Position numbers and translations under genes: made by a program
Virus record (IMG/VR): IMGVR_UViG_3300025853_000677
Coordinates: 1 to 23,507 of that record
From: a virus
Strand: one strand, 5' to 3'
Length of the DNA stretch: 23,507 nt
In this document: piece after piece, positions 5,070 through 12,427 of the stretch
How positions within the stretch are numbered: position 1 is the stretch's first letter
Layout of the letters: every line of letters begins with the position of its first letter
Notes under the pieces: generated by a model
The model's input: only the letters and a program-made list of their open reading frames with translations
What the model was told of the DNA's origin: nothing
Databases searched by the model: none

Positions 5070-5300
5070 TTACCAATCAGGATATTCCCAAATAATATTC
5101 CTTTTTATTGATAGTCTTTTTGTATTCACCCTTTTTTTAGTGCATTCTTTACACTCATAAGAATATGATGATGCTATGGTCTTTCTATTTTTTCTTGTGA
5201 GATAATAGTCTTCAATCAAATTTTTAACTTTTCCACATACTCTACATTTACGATCAAAAAATAATAGGTGTTCTACCTCAATCTCATCATCAAAAGTCAT
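5070..5300 (-). CDS. Small zinc-motif protein between gp17 and gp18
   Basis: A 76-residue product starting MTFDDEIEVEHLLFFDRKC. I chose the ATG at 5300 because it overlaps the gp17 stop as TAATG, the coupling used elsewhere in this window; an upstream GTG at 5315 would add five residues. Two CxxC pairs, C19/C22 and C50/C53, probably bind one zinc ion as a zinc ribbon; between them lies a basic segment (YLTRKNRK), and the C-terminus is basic before ending WEYPDW. This resembles the zinc-binding part of phage HNH or endonuclease VII-type proteins, but no catalytic HNH residues are visible, so it may only bind nucleic acid or protein. I recall similar small proteins at this place in cyanophages. 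T4 has no gene between 17 and 18. Function is unknown. Confidence 0.8.
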   Translation of the reverse strand: MTFDDEIEVEHLLFFDRKCRVCGKVKNLIEDYYLTRKNRKTIASSYSYECKECTKKRVNTKRLSIKRNIIWEYPDW

Positions 5301-6946
5301 TACATGTAATCCCACATATAAGATCTATCTCCATATTCATCGGTATGCCATCTATCACCTGAAGCATCTACAAAACTTGTTTCATCATTAAATCCATCCG
5401 AAATAAATCCAAAAGGAGACATGTCTTGTTCAATTTGATTTCTTTGTTCTTCATAAATTCTTTTACGCACATCATTATCTGTCATTTCTCTAAAATAATC
5501 CTGTGCAACCAACCAAGAAAAAATTACAAGACACATTGCAAGATCATCATTACACCCTTCTTCTGCTTCAAATGAATTTCCTTTCTGTGCAAATGTTGTG
5601 AGTTCTGATATAATTTCGTAGTCACTTGTCACTAATTTATCATCTTCAATTAGGGTTTTTAAATTTGAGCAACCTAATTTTTTAACTGATGAAGTTGTTC
5701 TGACTCCAAGTTGAGATTTTTTTCCACTAAATCCGGATCCTGCAATTTGCCCATTTCTACCTCTCATGGAACACATAAGAATATTTTCATATTCTAAGTC
5801 ATATTGAAGAATACTTGCTACTTGGTCTCCAATATCATTAACTTCAATCAATAACCAAGATTGATTGTATGCATTTGCAACATCCAAAATTATATTTGGA
5901 AAAAGCATAGGTTTAATTTCATTATTTCTATATTTTCCTACAACTCTATATGGAAATTCTGTAATGTCAAAAATTATAAATGCCGAATAGTCATTGCCCA
6001 ATCCACGAGCAACATCAACTGTGATTAGATAATTGTGTTCTTTATTTGGTTCTTCGTAAATATCCAATCCAGCATTTCTCTTAATTGGATCATCATATAC
6101 CAACATTTTTAATTTTGCTGGATTAATTAGTGTATTGACAGATCCTAAAAACTCACATTCAAACTCAACTTTAAATTGTTGCTCGGAAGTATTTGCAATC
6201 GTTTGTTCTTTCCAAACAATATCTCTACCAGGAACTTCCGACCAATGTACTTCAGTGGGAATATATTCATTCTTACTTTTTTCCGCATCATGCCACATAC
6301 GGTAGAAATGATTCATACCATGTGGTGTGGATACAATAATTACCTTGGTGTTTTTACCAGAAGTAATAGTAGGATAAACAGATGCAAAGAACGAGTCAGC
6401 AACGTGATTTGGGACGAATGCGAACTCGTCGAGAAAGAGGATGTTAAACGACATACCTCTGACAGCACTTGCAGACGTAGAAGCTGCCAATATCTTACTG
6501 CCATTTTCTAACTCGATAGAACCTTTATTCCAAGATATAATACCTTGTTGCATCCATTTAGGCAAGTTTTCATAAGCAGTCGCTAATCTTCCTAACAATT
6601 CTCTTGCGGTTGCTGCCTTGTTTGCCAATATGCCAATATTAACACTATCATTAAAAATAAGATAATGCAAAAGATATGATACCACAGTAGTAGACTTGCC
6701 GGTCTGTCGAGGCATCTTGCAGATATTAAATCTGTTATTGTGAAAATTGTGTATTAATCTTTCTTGAAAGTGATATGGATGAAACTGTGTCAAACCTTCA
6801 TCAAGAGAGACAATCTTTACATAATTATTTGCAAAATAAATTGGATCATCTTTACATTTAATGAACTCAATAACTTGCTTTTCAGTAAATTCAATAGCAG
6901 TGTTTGCTTTCTTTAATAATGGATTACCAAGATATACTTCACTCAT
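5300..6946 (-). CDS. 17: Large terminase subunit gp17 (packaging ATPase and nuclease)
   Basis: DNA packaging motor: the N-terminal ATPase pumps DNA into the prohead through the portal, and the C-terminal RNase H-fold nuclease cuts the concatemer for headful packaging. The 548-residue product has Walker A MPRQTGKS (78-85), Walker B ILFLDEF (169-175, D173 and E174), and a coupling motif VSTPHG (205-210). The nuclease acidic residues are D311 in LITVDVARG, E368 in LLIEVNDIGD and D467/D468 in GCNDDLAM. T4 gp17 has 610 residues; the shortening is mainly at the N-terminus before Walker A. The start has AAAGG about 11 bases upstream and lies 6 bp after the previous gene. The gene is intact and all key residues are present. 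Confidence 0.98.
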   Translation of the reverse strand: MSEVYLGNPLLKKANTAIEFTEKQVIEFIKCKDDPIYFANNYVKIVSLDEGLTQFHPYHFQERLIHNFHNNRFNICKMPRQTGKSTTVVSYLLHYLIFNDSVNIGILANKAATARELLGRLATAYENLPKWMQQGIISWNKGSIELENGSKILAASTSASAVRGMSFNILFLDEFAFVPNHVADSFFASVYPTITSGKNTKVIIVSTPHGMNHFYRMWHDAEKSKNEYIPTEVHWSEVPGRDIVWKEQTIANTSEQQFKVEFECEFLGSVNTLINPAKLKMLVYDDPIKRNAGLDIYEEPNKEHNYLITVDVARGLGNDYSAFIIFDITEFPYRVVGKYRNNEIKPMLFPNIILDVANAYNQSWLLIEVNDIGDQVASILQYDLEYENILMCSMRGRNGQIAGSGFSGKKSQLGVRTTSSVKKLGCSNLKTLIEDDKLVTSDYEIISELTTFAQKGNSFEAEEGCNDDLAMCLVIFSWLVAQDYFREMTDNDVRKRIYEEQRNQIEQDMSPFGFISDGFNDETSFVDASGDRWHTDEYGDRSYMWDYM

Positions 6947-6952
6947 AAAAAA

Positions 6953-8230
6953 TTACCTTTGTTCAATCCAGTTCAATACTGCGAGTGCTGCTTTGTTAGT
7001 ATTAGGTGAAGCACATGCTAAAGTGTATATATCACTGATCGTTCCAATACCACTTCTACCAATTTGTAGTGCTGCCTTATCATCAATGTCTACAAGAGAA
7101 GAACCACCAGAAATCGTAAATCCACTCAGGACAATATTTCCACCAGTTGTAGCAGTAGCACTTGTGTCGTATTGGATAAAGGAGTTTGGATCTGGATGAT
7201 CTGTCCAACTTGCACCAGTTAATGTTGGGTTCTCAATCAATCTCCAATAGACATTAGTATTATCATTCGTTGCTGTTTGTAGAGATCTTAACAAAGCAAC
7301 AGCAGCCAATGAACCAGATTTTAATCTGAGACTTACGACTGGATAAAATGTATTTGCATCTATCAGTGTAGTTCCAGTAATCGGATTAGCAACACTTTCA
7401 AGAATACCAAGTTTCTCTGGTTCACCTTCCTGAATCAGAGAATTGGAACCCTGATACATGTAATGAGTTCCTGCAACACCAGTTACATTTTCAATCTCAA
7501 CACGAATGGGTAAGAATGGAGTAGAACACCAAACAAAGTCATTAGTATTTGAATTATCAAATGTATGAGACGGAATTGTCTCATTTTGCATTAACCAGGA
7601 AAACTCTACAAGACCAGCACCATACCATTCATAGTTGATGGAAATCATCTGCTGTTTTGTTGCATCAGCAGTTACACCAGTATATCCATTACCATCAAAC
7701 TTTTCACCATTCCAATTGTCTCTAGTGACTCTGGTTTCTGTAACAATGCCTGTTGTATTACTACGAATTACATAAGAATAAGTTCCACCATCATCCTCAA
7801 AGAAAACACCATTATTTTCATCAAATAATCCAAACCTTCTACGAATACCGACCTGTGGAGTATCAAGACGAATTGCAAACGCAAGAGTAGCAGCTCTGCC
7901 AGGAATGTATCTCATTACATTCTTGGTCTGTCGAATTACTTTACTTCCAGATGCAGAACCAACCTGCATTACTACATTACTGGAATTTGCATTATAAGTA
8001 GAAGTTGCACCGACTCCTACTACACTCTCATCCCAGACATCAGTTTCCTTGCCATATTGAAAAGTGTTGAAGAACACTGTCTGATATGGAGCAACCTTTA
8101 ATCTGTTATTATTAGAAAATTGAGGTCTCCAGTCGGTCTGGTTTCCCCAGTGATCAGCAATATTATATACCTCAAATAGAGATCTTTCCTGGTTTAGAAA
8201 GTCCTGTGTGTTCTTATTCCACTGAGCCAT
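6953..8230 (-). CDS. Probable virion structural protein, 425 aa
   Basis: I recognise this as a family that recurs in T4-like cyanophages and other marine phages, but not with a proven function. The product has no signal peptide or membrane segment. It is rich in aromatic, Gly, Asn and Thr residues and looks all-beta. The block RRRFGLFDENNGVFFEDDGG near residues 130-149, with nearby TYSYVIRS, resembles jelly-roll or lectin-like virion proteins that I remember by pattern. Its ATG overlaps the stop of the 102-aa gene (TGATG), with GGAG upstream, and gp17 follows after 6 bp, so it is transcribed with them. In T4, g16 and g17 are directly adjacent; here this gene and two others separate them. A capsid or tail decoration role is inference only. 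Confidence 0.8.
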   Translation of the reverse strand: MAQWNKNTQDFLNQERSLFEVYNIADHWGNQTDWRPQFSNNNRLKVAPYQTVFFNTFQYGKETDVWDESVVGVGATSTYNANSSNVVMQVGSASGSKVIRQTKNVMRYIPGRAATLAFAIRLDTPQVGIRRRFGLFDENNGVFFEDDGGTYSYVIRSNTTGIVTETRVTRDNWNGEKFDGNGYTGVTADATKQQMISINYEWYGAGLVEFSWLMQNETIPSHTFDNSNTNDFVWCSTPFLPIRVEIENVTGVAGTHYMYQGSNSLIQEGEPEKLGILESVANPITGTTLIDANTFYPVVSLRLKSGSLAAVALLRSLQTATNDNTNVYWRLIENPTLTGASWTDHPDPNSFIQYDTSATATTGGNIVLSGFTISGGSSLVDIDDKAALQIGRSGIGTISDIYTLACASPNTNKAALAVLNWIEQR

Positions 8231-8538
8231 CAGTCACTCCAAGTTAATCTTTCTGGTTGATATCTTTGTGCGTTTTTGATTTTTGAAGAAGGAGAATTTC
8301 CTGGATAAATTTGATGAACAATTGCACCTGGATATTCTCCTTGAATCTGCTCTGCCAATTCATTTTTGGAAAGCATTTTACCTTCTATTTCAAGACGGTA
8401 TAACTTACCTTCCCAAACAACATCGGCAAAAAATGACTCTGATGCCTGTTCTGGTTGGGAACTTCCCACATTGAGAGTTCCATTGAAATCACCATTGATG
8501 GTGATGCTTTCTGAGAGAAATTGTTGAAAACTTTTCAT
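8230..8538 (-). CDS. Candidate internal head protein with T4-like capsid-targeting sequence
   Basis: A 102-residue product beginning MKSFQQFLSES. T4 internal proteins, which are packed in the head and ejected with the DNA, start MKTYQEFIAEA; that ten-residue capsid-targeting sequence is removed by the prohead protease gp21 after Glu10, at a consensus [LI]-x-E followed by a small residue. Here L8-S9-E10 followed by S11 has the same spacing. The rest has a short beta-like segment (ITINGDFNGTLNV), a linker, and a compact domain with VVWEGKLYRLEI and LAEQIQGEYPGAIVHQIYPG, ending in a basic KIKNAQRYQPERLTWSD. I remember related small proteins in cyanophages. GGAAG lies upstream of the ATG. The head-internal role is inferred from the N-terminus and the position between terminase genes. 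Confidence 0.8.
   Translation of the reverse strand: MKSFQQFLSESITINGDFNGTLNVGSSQPEQASESFFADVVWEGKLYRLEIEGKMLSKNELAEQIQGEYPGAIVHQIYPGNSPSSKIKNAQRYQPERLTWSD
8509..8538 (-). other. Predicted capsid-targeting peptide and gp21 cleavage site
   Basis: These bases encode the first ten residues, MKSFQQFLSE, of the 102-aa protein. They align without gaps to the T4 internal-protein leader MKTYQEFIAE: M1, K2, Q5, F7 and E10 are identical and the others mostly similar. Cleavage after E10 would release a protein starting at S11. The phage must encode a gp21 homologue, expected beyond the left edge of the window after g20. Confidence 0.5.
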
Positions 8539-8541
8539 TGA

Positions 8542-9702
8542 TCAGCACTTCCAACGACGACGGGCTTTACACACGGGTTTGTCTGGGGTCTTAGAGCAAT
8601 CGATATTATGCATGTCTTGCTGACCCTTAGAACGAGCGCAGAATGACTTGCGTCTCTTTGCATCCTTACTTCCTGGTTTTGGATCACCAGTTACGGCAGT
8701 CTTAAGTTTGGAACCTGGGTTCTCACGACGATAGGCATTAACTGCTTTCTGACTCATACCATCAGTTTTATCCCCTTTATTGACTTTCTGCCAATCCTCA
8801 CCAAGTTGAGATCTCCAATCAGAAAATTCTTCAAATCTAACTTTTGGTTTTAACTTTTTCTTTCCATCTGGTGATGGAATAAACTCTCCCATTTCTGATG
8901 CTTTTGGATCTTTGGAATCTACATCACCATCAACATCAGCATCAACTCTTTTTGCTGCTTTTGCTGAAAGTTTTTTCAAATCTTTTGAACTGGAACCAGA
9001 TGGAACTTCGTGTGGAGTATGTGCCTGTGAATGAATCTCATTAACTTGTTCCACTTCTTCTTTCTTTACACAGTTGTTATAGGTCTTACCAAACATCTTT
9101 TTGGTTCCCTTTTTCTCATAACCCTTCCAACACTTTTGTCCTTCATCAATATCTTGACCACCTTTGATTGGTTCTGCTTCAACAATATCAATAAACTCAT
9201 ATTCAGTTGCCTGGAAATCATCTCTCCAGTTAGAGAACTCATAAGACTCTGACTTATTACCCCAGTTATCAGCACCAACCTTACGGCACTTGACTAATGC
9301 TCCAGATGCATAAGCAGAAGGCCATACGGAGTAACGTGACTTGACCTTATGGTAACAGGCATCTTTCTTACCACTACCTTTACCTGGTTTATCCTTTGCT
9401 TCGGTTACTTCTACTTCTTCTTTTTTCATTTTCTTTTTTGGATCTGTAGAAACATATGTTGGTTTAGCAGCACCTGATTTTTGTTGCTGTCCTGGATCTG
9501 CTTTTTTCTTTCTTCTTTGAGCAGAAAGTCTCTCTGCCTTACTCATACTTGCCCTCTTTGCAGAAGAGACACACTTAGGAGTTCCCTCACCGGGTTCATC
9601 ACTTGCACAGGTTCCACCTGTTACAACATTAACCCAACCGGATTTGCCATCTTTTGATTTGGACTTTCCGAACCAATCGCGGAGTCCCTCTTCATTTATC
9701 AT
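8542..9702 (-). CDS. Lys/Cys-rich mosaic protein with EF-hand-like loop, 386 aa
   Basis: An unusual basic protein that looks assembled from separate cysteine modules. Module A, residues 8-88, has WFGKSKSKDGKSGWVNV, C32 and C44, then a Lys/Arg run. Module B, 112-149, runs from KKDACYHKVKSRYSVWPSAY to LVKCRKVGADNWG. Module C, 187-214, is CWKGYEKKGTKKMFGKTYNN then C211. An EF-hand or dockerin-like loop DADVDGDVDSKD occupies 254-265. Module D, 316-386, has four Cys including KSFCARSKGQQ and the final residue. A motif [YE]EFS[ND]WR occurs twice, at 154-160 and 291-297. I remember modules B and D as separate small phage proteins (module D perhaps DUF6321-like, from memory). A possible gp21 site, IVE followed by A, is at 173-176. 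It sits directly after g16 with its own late promoter motif. Function is unknown; a virion-internal, DNA-associated role is conjecture. Confidence 0.85.
   Translation of the reverse strand: MINEEGLRDWFGKSKSKDGKSGWVNVVTGGTCASDEPGEGTPKCVSSAKRASMSKAERLSAQRRKKKADPGQQQKSGAAKPTYVSTDPKKKMKKEEVEVTEAKDKPGKGSGKKDACYHKVKSRYSVWPSAYASGALVKCRKVGADNWGNKSESYEFSNWRDDFQATEYEFIDIVEAEPIKGGQDIDEGQKCWKGYEKKGTKKMFGKTYNNCVKKEEVEQVNEIHSQAHTPHEVPSGSSSKDLKKLSAKAAKRVDADVDGDVDSKDPKASEMGEFIPSPDGKKKLKPKVRFEEFSDWRSQLGEDWQKVNKGDKTDGMSQKAVNAYRRENPGSKLKTAVTGDPKPGSKDAKRRKSFCARSKGQQDMHNIDCSKTPDKPVCKARRRWKC
8908..8943 (-). other. EF-hand-like calcium-loop codons in the mosaic protein
   Basis: The encoded loop DADVDGDVDSKD has Asp at positions 1, 3, 5 and 12, Gly at 6 and Val at 8, which fits the 12-residue EF-hand/dockerin calcium loop. 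No clear flanking helix pair is visible, so calcium binding is a prediction. Confidence 0.5.
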
Positions 9703-9714
9703 TTTTAAAGAAGA

Positions 9715-10134
9715 TTACTCTTTATTATTTAGGAAACCCTGCTTCAACATTTTTTGAAGTTCGGAAGTTGATCCAACAAACACGGCATTATTAGTTACAT
9801 TATTTGTAGTTTTCTTCGAATCTTCTTCAACGTCTTTAAGTTTTTTCTGAAGATCAATTAATTTATCAGTCGTATCGGCAACACTCTTAATCAACTGTCC
9901 TGCGACCTCATATGCCCTTGGACTGCCTCCTTCACCTGCTACCTCCATAATACCATTAATTGCCTCTTGACCCTTCTCTATGAGGGAATAGAGATTGGCA
10001 CGACTATACTCATAGTCCTTTTCAATGTCATTGGATTTTGATTTTACAACCTCTAGTTTTTTGGGGGATTCCACTTCAGTAATGTCACTCGTTGTGTTGA
10101 GTGCACTATCGATAGAATCATAATTATTACTCAT
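9715..10134 (-). CDS. 16: Small terminase subunit gp16
   Basis: Small terminase: recognises phage DNA and regulates the gp17 motor during packaging initiation. The 139-residue product is a little shorter than T4 gp16 (164). It matches T4 gp16 along its length: EVVKSKSNDIEKDYEYSRAN corresponds to the T4 segment around EVKS and DLEDDYGVVRRN. A helical, coiled-coil-like core follows (about residues 45-105, with GGSPRAYEVAGQLIK resembling T4 ADSPRHMEVFATLM), and then the C-terminal NAVFVGSTSELQKML resembling T4 NATVFMGSPTELMDEI. The start lies 5 bp after gp15. The C-terminal codons contain a late-promoter motif that probably serves the next gene. In T4 gp17 follows at once; here three genes intervene. 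Confidence 0.93.
   Translation of the reverse strand: MSNNYDSIDSALNTTSDITEVESPKKLEVVKSKSNDIEKDYEYSRANLYSLIEKGQEAINGIMEVAGEGGSPRAYEVAGQLIKSVADTTDKLIDLQKKLKDVEEDSKKTTNNVTNNAVFVGSTSELQKMLKQGFLNNKE
9726..9732 (-). promoter_or_regulatory. Candidate late promoter for the mosaic gene (CTAAATA), inside g16
   Basis: The minus strand reads CCTAAATAATAAAGAG across the last codons of g16 (encoding FLNNKE). The CTAAATA element is 24 bp upstream of the mosaic gene ATG. The 12 bases CTAAATAATAAA are identical to those in front of g20. It would let the inserted genes and gp17 be transcribed apart from g16. Confidence 0.5.
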
Positions 10135-10139
10135 AAGTA

Positions 10140-10979
10140 TTAAATATCAGTTTGTTGTGTTGGACTATATTCTTTAGAATCTTGGAAGAAACTCCAATCA
10201 TCATTAAATCCAAAATCATCACCCGGTTCAAGTAAGGCATCATCTGTTGCGTTTATTACTCCATCACTGTTTTTGTCTTCAAGTGCCTTTGGAGTAACTG
10301 TATATCTTACTTCACGTTTTGCTGTAGTATCACTTGTCGAATGAAGATCGACTTGGACCTTACGAATAATTCCATCGGCAGTATCCGAAATAGGACCAAA
10401 TATATAAGTTTTTGCAGTAAATCTTAAAGTATAAATTAAAGCTCTTCTGGTTGAAAAATCACCCTCATAATCGTCTTGAAAATCTATACTATCAAGAACA
10501 ATTGGAATATCTCTTTTCTCACCAATAGAAGTAACTAAATCTACCGTTAGATTAAAGGATGGTTGAAAAAACGGTAATATTTGCTCTATAATTTGAAGAG
10601 CATCATCACTCAGTTTACTAAAAATATTTAATTCAAAATTAATATTGTATGGAACAGGCATAAAAACCTTTTTTAAGTTTGTTCCATCGGATGCTTTAAA
10701 TGTTTGAGTTATTCCAGTTTTTCTTGTAGAATCATATTGTATCCCTGTCATCTCAAATGACATTCTTGGCAAAGTAATCGCAACAGATTTTGATAATTCT
10801 GATTGTTGTTGAATTTTTGCTAAAAACTTTTGAGATGGTCCATATGATAATCCGACTTTGGTTTCTTCGGCAACAGTACCATCTTTATTCAAATGTCTAA
10901 TATAAATTGAATTAAAAAGAGTACCAAAACCAACGATGGTTTTTCTTATAAGTTCGTGATAAAAATAAGTTCCTAGCAT
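10140..10979 (-). CDS. 15: Tail terminator / sheath stabiliser gp15
   Basis: Tail completion protein; its hexamer caps the tube and sheath and joins the tail to the neck of the head. The 279-residue product matches T4 gp15 (272): the start MLGTYFYHELIRKTIVGFGT parallels T4 MFGYFYNSSFRRYATLMGDL. The central FELNIFSKLSDDALQIIEQI and LPFFQPSFN parallel T4 YELSIFTRYEDDMFQIVEQI and LPYFQPHFN. The conserved pieces SRR/STRR and DGIIR are also present. The C-terminal part, from about residue 225, is not T4-like and contains an EF-hand-like loop (DKNSDGVINATD, 235-246) followed by an acidic stretch. Its ATG overlaps the gp14 stop as TAATG, with GGAG upstream, suggesting translational coupling with the neck proteins. 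Confidence 0.95.
   Translation of the reverse strand: MLGTYFYHELIRKTIVGFGTLFNSIYIRHLNKDGTVAEETKVGLSYGPSQKFLAKIQQQSELSKSVAITLPRMSFEMTGIQYDSTRKTGITQTFKASDGTNLKKVFMPVPYNINFELNIFSKLSDDALQIIEQILPFFQPSFNLTVDLVTSIGEKRDIPIVLDSIDFQDDYEGDFSTRRALIYTLRFTAKTYIFGPISDTADGIIRKVQVDLHSTSDTTAKREVRYTVTPKALEDKNSDGVINATDDALLEPGDDFGFNDDWSFFQDSKEYSPTQQTDI
10242..10277 (-). other. EF-hand-like calcium-loop codons in gp15
   Basis: Residues 235-246 of gp15, DKNSDGVINATD, fit the EF-hand/dockerin loop: D1, N3, D5, G6, I8 and D12. T4 gp15 as I remember it has no such loop. An acidic EPGDDFGFNDDW stretch follows. Calcium binding is a prediction only. Confidence 0.45.
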
Positions 10980-12427
10980 TAATATTCTCCAAATGGATTC
11001 GATTCAGTAAAGTCTAATATGTTGTCTGCTTCAGTTTCAATTTCTTCATTGATATCAAATGACTCCTCATAAAAATCATCGTCATATGATTTAAGTATAT
11101 ATGTTGCCGAAGAACCAGACCCAACAATAAGTTCTCCTGGAGAGAATTTTCCATTAACACTAGAAACTCTTAGTTCTCCTGGTGGATTAAAAAGATCCAA
11201 ATCCGTTCTCAAGTTATAATATCTAACTACAGCACTGGTATTTGAGAGAGAACCCGTAACAGTTTCATTATAGATAAAAGTTCCTCCAGTACTTACAGTA
11301 GAAGGGGCAGTGATTGAAACGGAAGGTTGTTGAGTATATCCATATCCCGCATTAACGATCTGAATTTGGGAAATAGACCCATCAGAATTTATAACTGCTT
11401 CCGCAATAGCTGTAGATCCGGCACCTGGTGCTGCTGGATTTGGAACAGTCACTACTGGATTTGAGAAATAATTATTTCCAGAATTTGTAATTGTAAATCC
11501 ATTTATTCCACCATTAACAACTGAAGCAGTTGCTTGTGCTCCAGATCCTCCACCACCAGATATGGTAACTGTTGGTAGAATTGATGTACTATACCCACTT
11601 CCACCATTTGTAATTCTTATTGATTCTATTGATAAGAAATTGGAACCACTAATCGAACTTGTTATTGCCACTGCGGTAGCTCTAGTTCCATCACTACTAC
11701 TCGGAGCAGAAATAGTAACAATTGGAGTGGATGTATATGAATATCCATCATTATTTAAAGTTATCTTACCTATAACACCGTCACCTATCGATGCATTGGA
11801 CGTTGCAGTTATCTGCTCTGAAGGACCTAAAGTTAATGTTGTTATATAACCCTCTTCTTCTACAGTTTTATCAATCTCCTCTATTGAAGTGTCTATTTCT
11901 TCATCCTGATATTCATAAAGTTCGCACTGAAGTTCATATACATAATTTCTTCCTAGTTGATAAAACGGTTTTTCGTGCTCAACTCTTTTTATTTCGAATA
12001 ATCTTTCACCTAATGGAAAATAAATTAAATCCCCCTCTCTTGGTCTTGTCACAATACCCATATCATAATCTGTTATTGTTCCCTTCGTAATTCCTGTCTG
12101 TCTTCCATCTAACAGTGGAACAATAAACTCTTCAAACCTTTCTTTAGATATAACTAAATTTATTTCATTTTTTAATCTAAGACCAAATTTAGTCATCAAA
12201 TCACTTCCTGGTGCATATCCATCATAATTATCAAGATATGCCTCAATGACAAAATTATCATCAAATTGAGAAGTTTCCACTTCCCTTAAAATATTATCAC
12301 TTTTTACAAATTTTCTTGGAATATAGTAAACTTCTATTCCATACATCTTCAATTGTTCATTAATTAAATCCTGAATCAAATATTGTTCAGTAGATGTACC
12401 GTTTAAGAAAAATGGATTTAATGCCAT
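10979..12427 (-). CDS. 14: Neck protein gp14 with inserted beta-repeat domain
   Basis: Head completion / neck protein; with gp13 it seals the filled head at the portal and forms the tail docking site. The first 175 residues (start MALNPFFLNGTSTEQYLIQD, then MYGIEVYYIPRKF, REGDLIYFPLGERLFEIKRV, and YVYELQCELYEYQDEEI) are the neck-protein core. T4 gp14 has 256 residues, but this product has 482. The excess is mainly residues 217-376: four copies of a repeat of about 41-49 residues with the pattern I-x2-[IF]-x-[IL]-x-N-x-G-x-[GSN]-Y, then P-x-V-x-[IV]. The C-terminus (from about 385) is acidic, ends ESNPFGEY, and may belong to the neck core. The assignment rests on the core and its place between gp13 and gp15. 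The start is 3 bp after gp13. Confidence 0.92.
   Translation of the reverse strand: MALNPFFLNGTSTEQYLIQDLINEQLKMYGIEVYYIPRKFVKSDNILREVETSQFDDNFVIEAYLDNYDGYAPGSDLMTKFGLRLKNEINLVISKERFEEFIVPLLDGRQTGITKGTITDYDMGIVTRPREGDLIYFPLGERLFEIKRVEHEKPFYQLGRNYVYELQCELYEYQDEEIDTSIEEIDKTVEEEGYITTLTLGPSEQITATSNASIGDGVIGKITLNNDGYSYTSTPIVTISAPSSSDGTRATAVAITSSISGSNFLSIESIRITNGGSGYSTSILPTVTISGGGGSGAQATASVVNGGINGFTITNSGNNYFSNPVVTVPNPAAPGAGSTAIAEAVINSDGSISQIQIVNAGYGYTQQPSVSITAPSTVSTGGTFIYNETVTGSLSNTSAVVRYYNLRTDLDLFNPPGELRVSSVNGKFSPGELIVGSGSSATYILKSYDDDFYEESFDINEEIETEADNILDFTESNPFGEY
11300..11779 (-). repeat. Four-copy GGxGY beta-repeat in gp14
   Basis: Copies begin near residues 217, 266, 307 and 351. Examples are IESIRITNGGSGYSTSILP, INGFTITNSGNNYFSNPV and ISQIQIVNAGYGYTQQPSV. 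Each ends in a short strand such as VTISAP or VSITAPS, followed by a Gly/Ala-rich link. Similar units occur in gp8 and in the giant protein. Confidence 0.75.

Follow-up and report, generated by a model that had tools for sequence, protein, structure and literature searches.

According to passages of PMC9026906 on T4, the protease gp21 cuts after L/I-x-Glu, and the internal proteins of this phage reach the prohead by means of an N-terminal targeting peptide (CTS), which is removed at an L/I-x-Glu site. In the T4 record (NC_000866), IPII and IPIII begin with MKTYQEFIAE↓A (the arrow marks the cut position) and gp23 contains FGSFLTE↓A. At the place of this FLTE↓A, cyanophage gp23 has a hydrophobic-x-Glu triplet in 9/9 cases examined (ILTE↓T, FLAE↓A, LLTE↓A, MIAE↓Q). 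T4-like cyanophages abound in the ocean. For many proteins of their virions the annotation is unknown or names a 'non-structural' enzyme, whose presence there is puzzling. No description of a CTS in cyanophages, or of a polyprotein of the kind discussed here, was found in the open-access literature searched, which is not proof of novelty.

The window, the whole stretch of 23,507 nucleotides (23.5 kb) analysed, is an IMG/VR virus record that covers the head-neck-tail block of a T4-like cyanophage. Its minus strand carries, in order, gp13, gp14, gp15, gp16 (TerS), a 386-aa ORF, a 102-aa ORF, a 425-aa virion protein, gp17 (TerL), an endonuclease-VII-like gene, gp18 and gp19. The 386-aa ORF is probably a head-internal cargo polyprotein of this phage, which gp21 would cut into basic, Cys-paired peptides; its loading into the head and its cutting are considered probable because nearly every piece of it is preceded by the T4 head-protease cut signal.

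8542-9702, minus strand: whole ORF, 386 aa, ATG start, T4-GC 119 family, between gp16 and gp17
9715-10134, minus strand: gp16 (TerS)
5300-6946, minus strand: gp17 (TerL)

The ORF belongs to T4-GC 119, a cyanophage-only structural protein family, with which it has in common both homology (tblastn matches to the GC 119 proteins of S-SM2, P-SSM2 and S-B43) and the same gp16/gp17 neighbourhood. Its orthologues are annotated as hypothetical, 'structural protein, cyanophage only' or 'virion protein', and the T4-GC 119 literature gave structural or hypothetical labels only, with no description of modules, CTS or cleavage. Two of the neighbouring genes have features of their own: gp14 (10979-12427) carries a long insertion that matches repeats of baseplate wedge and tail fibre PHROGs, so that the same beta-repeat is common to neck and tail proteins, and gp15 (10140-10979) has near its C-terminus an EF/dockerin-like loop, DKNSDGVINATDD, which is also found in Syn1 gp15 and gives a weak Dockerin_1 match.

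The ORF is modular. Four Lys-rich segments with clustered Cys had been proposed in a preliminary description of this DNA, and all four are present, each with two Cys that do not vary among 25 aligned proteins (C32/C44, C116/C139, C191/C211 and C355/C386). The module order is N1-M2-M4-(EF-type loop)-DUF6321:

9409-9690, minus strand: module N1, residues 5-98 (LxxWF...GWVxxxxGxxCA...PKC), charge about +9
9253-9399, minus strand: module M2, residues 102-150 (KDACYHKVKSRYSVWPSAYASGALVKCRKVGADNWG), charge about +8; separate small genes in other phages
9064-9141, minus strand: module M4, residues 188-213 (GQKCWKGYEKKGTKKMFGKTYNNCVK)
8908-8943, minus strand: EF-hand-type loop DADVDGDVDSKD, residues 254-265, in a predicted disordered segment
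8545-8796, minus strand: DUF6321 module, residues 303-386, charge about +14

Only the C-terminal piece is recognised by Pfam, as a member of DUF6321 (PF19846), a family without assigned function (residues 311-384, E = 2e-11, 44.7 bits against a gathering cut-off of 28.5); NCBIfam gave no match. Since the DUF6321 match takes up about 74 residues, or the final fifth of the ORF, no single known domain extends over its full length. One match per genome is seen in 13/13 phage records where DUF6321 was found. Homologue alignments and a scan of about 390 loci delimit eight recurrent pieces (N1, M2, M4, DUF6321, M7, ZR, C3 and HEY), which are combined in about 450 homologous proteins into more than 60 architectures, nearly always with DUF6321 as the last piece; 131 of these proteins have DUF6321 alone, and multi-module loci are T4-like in 138/148 cases.

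In phages that are not T4-like, DUF6321 mostly stands as its own gene of about 95 aa (T4 markers are missing from 117 of 123 short standalone loci), which often lies directly after the major capsid gene in podovirus-like contigs; the capsid gene of locus L101 was identified. In the few kb fetched around 126 standalone DUF6321 loci, an M2-like small gene is present in 50 and an N1-like one in 43. The small standalone M2-like proteins match the first half of Pfam DUF5872 (PF19197) and the N1-like ones its second, C-terminal half, so that N1 and M2 are probably remote relatives of DUF5872; the window protein itself has no Pfam match to this family, and the order of the halves is reversed in it (N1 before M2). 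Because N1-like, M2-like and DUF6321 proteins stand as separate neighbouring small genes outside T4-like phages, the ORF joins into one chain proteins that are encoded side by side, yet separately, in other phages. This agrees with what the preliminary description suspected, as the modules do occur independently and in other orders, both as DUF6321 alone and as small genes beside it in non-T4 contigs. A fusion of another kind is found in a contig of an uncultured-bacterium MAG (L392:4534-6165), where a nucleotidyltransferase-like N-terminus is joined to a C-terminal DUF6321. No weight was given to the name of an Sf-CH8 'cytidyltransferase' that has an M4 module, since its translation has no evident nucleotidyltransferase part.

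The fusion had been read earlier as a multi-site binding protein, possibly for metal, and the loop as a calcium motif. A metal (zinc) and calcium sensor or storage protein would be consistent with the invariant Cys pairs and with DADVDGDVDSKD, which fits the 12-residue DxDxDG EF-hand loop pattern and is kept in about 25 homologues. The pattern is therefore real, but calcium binding by it is unsupported, because it is a single isolated loop, with neither a Pfam EF-hand match nor flanking helices, within a segment (216-294) that is predicted to be disordered. A zinc finger or ribbon would need four ligands per module, and each module has two invariant Cys and no invariant His, for which reason the zinc-site reading was dropped. 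Searches of solved structures, by sequence and by the fold of the DUF6321 model (a predicted compact four-helix domain, pLDDT 89), gave nothing useful, and a viral structure library returned DUF6321 proteins or unnamed ones. A metal and calcium protein, which would also leave the boundary sites described below unaccounted for, is extremely unlikely; of the binding function proposed earlier, the link to the phage head finds support, whereas metal or calcium binding does not.

The full-length AlphaFold model consists of folded pieces on disordered linkers and, because its confidence is poor (mean pLDDT 48), it was used for the disorder pattern alone. All four Cys modules of the ORF are directly preceded by a hydrophobic-x-Glu triplet, [LIVMF]xE (after residues 4, 101, 187 and 302), an arrangement with a chance probability of P = 5e-5 in 20,000 shuffles; the 386 aa contain eight such triplets. 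As far as sequence can tell, these boundary sites are the consensus of the T4 gp21 prohead protease, which had been missed in the preliminary description and is new in this analysis. All eight triplets lie below pLDDT 50, as expected for accessible sites, and so do 58% of the residues.

9691-9699, minus strand: putative gp21-type site INE↓E, after residue 4, directly before N1
9400-9408, minus strand: putative gp21-type site VTE↓A, after residue 101, before M2
9178-9186, minus strand: putative gp21-type site IVE↓A, after residue 175
9142-9150, minus strand: putative gp21-type site IDE↓G, after residue 187, directly before M4
9037-9045, minus strand: putative gp21-type site VNE↓I, after residue 222
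8797-8805, minus strand: putative gp21-type site LGE↓D, after residue 302, directly before DUF6321

The same signal is found at the boundaries of the homologues (MSE↓GTLHKWF, LTE↓VKDKKGKG..DACY, LDE↓KCWKGY, VSE↓GAAWTKK and VEE↓AVRMPAKTGN are examples). Among non-redundant relatives, from which near-duplicates were removed, a site at a fixed offset precedes 45% of N1, 38% of M2, 46% of M4, 55% of DUF6321 and 77% of M7 instances, against 2-6% in shuffled linkers (2% for N1), with offsets that were picked from the data and margins that are far above any shuffle. The residue at P3 is hydrophobic, given Glu at the site, with a frequency of 0.70-0.98, versus 0.16-0.33 at other Glu nearby. For about half of the module instances the consensus is missing from the modal offset; boundary sites are not enriched before ZR, and the instances of HEY and C3 are too few to judge. 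The P1' residues K and D differ from the E↓A of T4 IPII/IPIII and gp23, P3 with V or M is looser than the L/I of T4, and for part of the conserved sites inheritance of the flanks from a common ancestor may be the cause.

A gp21 signal is expected just where gp21 exists, and therefore T4 and non-T4 contexts were compared. The signal precedes DUF6321 in 83/129 T4-context loci versus 4/122 non-T4 standalone loci (P = 2e-27), and in 14/18 versus 2/32 when the loci are made non-redundant (P = 3e-7), so that it is restricted to the T4 context. This comparison bears on the possibility that the protein is never cut, and that it acts as a multi-domain virion protein, with beads on a flexible string that reach several capsid, neck or DNA sites at once and with triplets that are ordinary parts of acidic linkers. 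Such a protein is near to the multi-site binding proposed earlier; the virion presence of a homologue (see below) fits it equally well, and the folded modules on disordered linkers of the AlphaFold model and the location of the gene among neck and tail genes also speak for it. However, linker composition fails to yield a fixed-offset, P3-specific pattern, this pattern is nearly absent from non-T4 standalone DUF6321, and multi-module loci are almost all T4-like (138/148), which together make an uncut protein unlikely. What remains of the multi-site claim is that the modules can be separated, occur by themselves and are joined in this ORF, while the putative cut signals at their boundaries make a cargo polyprotein the better explanation of the fusion.

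The EFS[ND]WR motif, reported as twice repeated, was located at both places:

9223-9240, minus strand: first motif EFSNWR, residues 155-160, CTS-like; the surrounding linker is acidic (charge -5) and has IVE↓A at its end
8812-8829, minus strand: second motif EFSDWR, residues 292-297, CTS-like, followed by LGE↓D; predicted helix 296-304

This motif is better explained as the upstream half of a putative targeting-plus-cleavage signal of the CTS/gp21 type than as another binding site. Homologues contain it in signals such as EEFSNWREELAE↓GAAW, SFSNWREELGE↓DWQK, SFSNWREELGE↓AKKCW and YSNWREELQNLQE↓KEGKKDACY, and other boundaries are near to the N-terminal CTS form (KSFGQFME↓DWQ, SFQQFQE↓KCW, KTFAEFQAE↓CW). 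Several standalone DUF6321 proteins in T4-like loci (Syn1, L373, L376) have CTS-like starts, MKNFAQYIE↓, MKSFKQLRIDINE↓ and MKSFSQFIEE↓. A further example lies in the window itself, in the gene next to the ORF:

8230-8538, minus strand: companion gene, 102 aa, phrog_1742 (no assigned function), CTS then M7
8509-8538, minus strand: N-terminal CTS of the companion gene, clear and of T4 type, MKSFQQFLSE↓S

In many relatives the companion gene is conserved, immediately downstream of the gene for DUF6321. M7, which is here a separate gene with an N-terminal CTS, lies in many relatives inside the fusion protein, where [LIVMF]xE↓A stands before it and xE↓A is seen in about 80%, and the companion M7 and the fused M7 are homologous (HHalign probability 97%, with an M7 model built from internal copies alone, without the 102-aa protein of the neighbour). 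The record of S-SCSM1 does not label its M7 CTS protein as a virion protein. It might be proposed that CTS-bearing internal proteins became fused and that their old N-terminal signals are now passengers, neither needed nor cut. Internal stretches such as KSFGQFME↓DWQ do resemble former N-termini, and both M7 and DUF6321 exist as separate CTS-bearing genes. Nevertheless, relic sites are quite improbable, as 38-77% of boundaries still have hydrophobic-x-Glu although the sequences have diverged, a retention not easily accounted for unless selection acts, and the varied signal forms (FSNWR..LxE, SFxxFxE, VDE, LDE) have mainly the cut site in common.

A homologue of the ORF is present in the S-CREM2 virion. 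In the proteome of CsCl-purified S-CREM2 (PMC10665884, Table 3), ORF137, a DUF6321 homologue, was detected with 4 peptides and 4.1% coverage, and ORF160, in which N1, M4 and M2 are found, is in the same published proteome. The records of S-SCSM1 and S-B43 label the orthologue of the ORF as a virion/structural protein; a remark in a record, 'similar to Synechococcus phage S-SM1 protein', was not taken as evidence from proteomics. These data concern the proposal that the ORF encodes a cytoplasmic DNA-binding or host-takeover protein, detected in virions by carry-over. The modules are strongly basic, and DUF5872-like relatives of N1 and M2 occur in an algal virus, with no known head role (PMC12085832; Pfam match), as such a protein would have it. 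Detection in CsCl-purified S-CREM2, the labels of both records and the location of standalone DUF6321 directly after capsid genes in podovirus-like contigs all speak against it, and a cytoplasmic protein is very unlikely.

In S-CREM2 (OR473000), the proteins with a CTS-like sequence at or near the N-terminus are ORFs 6, 12, 13, 14, 136 and 154, which comprise a SAM hydrolase, a Cas9-like nuclease, a kinase, a cytidylyltransferase and two unknown proteins. Among the virion proteins of this phage, CTS-like N-termini are found in the SAM hydrolase (MKDFDSFLEE), the kinase ((M/V)KRFDAFLTE), the cytidylyltransferase (MKNFSSFLTE), ORF13 and ORF136, and the Cas9-like nuclease has RFASFMAE↓A slightly inside its N-terminus. 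All five S-CREM2 proteins that match the CTS pattern were detected in the virion (hypergeometric 6e-4), a value that is optimistic, and supportive rather than decisive, because the pattern was composed after viewing the S-CREM2 N-termini. No other match was found among the 942 ORFs of S-CREM2, and none at 7,582 internal Met positions in other genomes. The cytidylyltransferase (T4-GC 190), which has a CTS in P-SSM4, S-SM1 and Syn9, has been reported in the S-SM1 virion (PMC3037559). The CTS-like stretches at or near their N-termini suggest that these S-CREM2 virion proteins are head cargo.

A separate observation concerns a second protein that carries a copy of the phage's own mature gp23 N-terminal arm (e.g. 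TTGYTGGDxxTGPxAGYDP), found in 7/9 cyanophage genomes:

gp23-arm proteins: Syn9 154429-154953; P-SSM4 157936-158475; P-HM1 146124-146828; S-SM1 152805-153353; S-SCSM1 93082-93306; S-SM2 91376-91804; S-CREM2 128342-129235

In S-SM2 the copy starts precisely where the CTS before it would be cut off (MKTLKQFLKE↓TPTNSVGNGGYTS), and in S-CREM2 it is fused to the modules N1-M4-M2, in a protein that is in the virion.

The model of a cargo polyprotein proposes that a number of small phage proteins, rich in Lys and with paired Cys, were joined into a single chain, whose linkers carry CTS-like peptides ([F/Y]S[N/D]WRxELxE or [S/K]FxxFxE) ending in hydrophobic-x-Glu directly before each module. These repeats would draw the polyprotein into the prohead core, like T4 internal proteins, and gp21 would cut at the module starts during head maturation. 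The acidic linkers would thus be removed (the EFSNWR linker has a charge of -5), leaving the basic peptides (+8, +9, +14) with the packaged DNA, from where they might be ejected into the host. A wider and more tentative proposal, somewhat short of probable, is that T4-like cyanophages have a general targeting code, in which N-terminal CTSs load enzymes (SAM hydrolase, kinase, cytidylyltransferase and probably the Cas9-like nuclease), and internal copies load and release swappable basic peptides from a polyprotein. If true, such a readable targeting-and-cleavage code would explain the enzymes found in virions and predict injected or DNA-packed proteins from sequence, and orphan families that are widespread (DUF6321, DUF5872-like) would gain a role. 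The polyprotein would, moreover, represent a design not described for T4, a head-internal polyprotein with shufflable modules freed by the head protease. The cargo-polyprotein reading is directly testable on existing mass-spectrometry data.

Two described systems are comparable. The inner-body and ejection proteins of phiKZ and SPN3US, cut by gp175/gp245, are similar in having several Glu-ending cut sites in head proteins and redundant propeptide sites; this likeness is one of description, and in the passages of PMC9026906 on these phages the multiple sites remove propeptides and no chain of swappable small modules is described. T4 IPI, IPII, IPIII and Alt, as far as they are treated in PMC9026906 and in NC_000866, are also basic cargo of a gp21 phage, with a hydrophobic-x-Glu cut after a short Phe-containing targeting peptide, and the CTS of IPII/IPIII, MKTYQEFIAE↓A, has its counterpart in the MKSFQQFLSE↓S of the companion gene. 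The gp21 consensus at the start of the mature part, which characterises T4-type internal proteins, is found at 4/4 modules of the ORF and family-wide. The ORF itself begins with MINE↓EGLRDWF, a site without the F..F targeting part of an N-terminal CTS, its CTS-like stretches being internal; for this reason it would work like an internal protein, but it is not filed as one. In these two sources, T4 internal proteins are single proteins with one N-terminal CTS, whereas the ORF joins unrelated modules, with internal CTS-like repeats and many sites.
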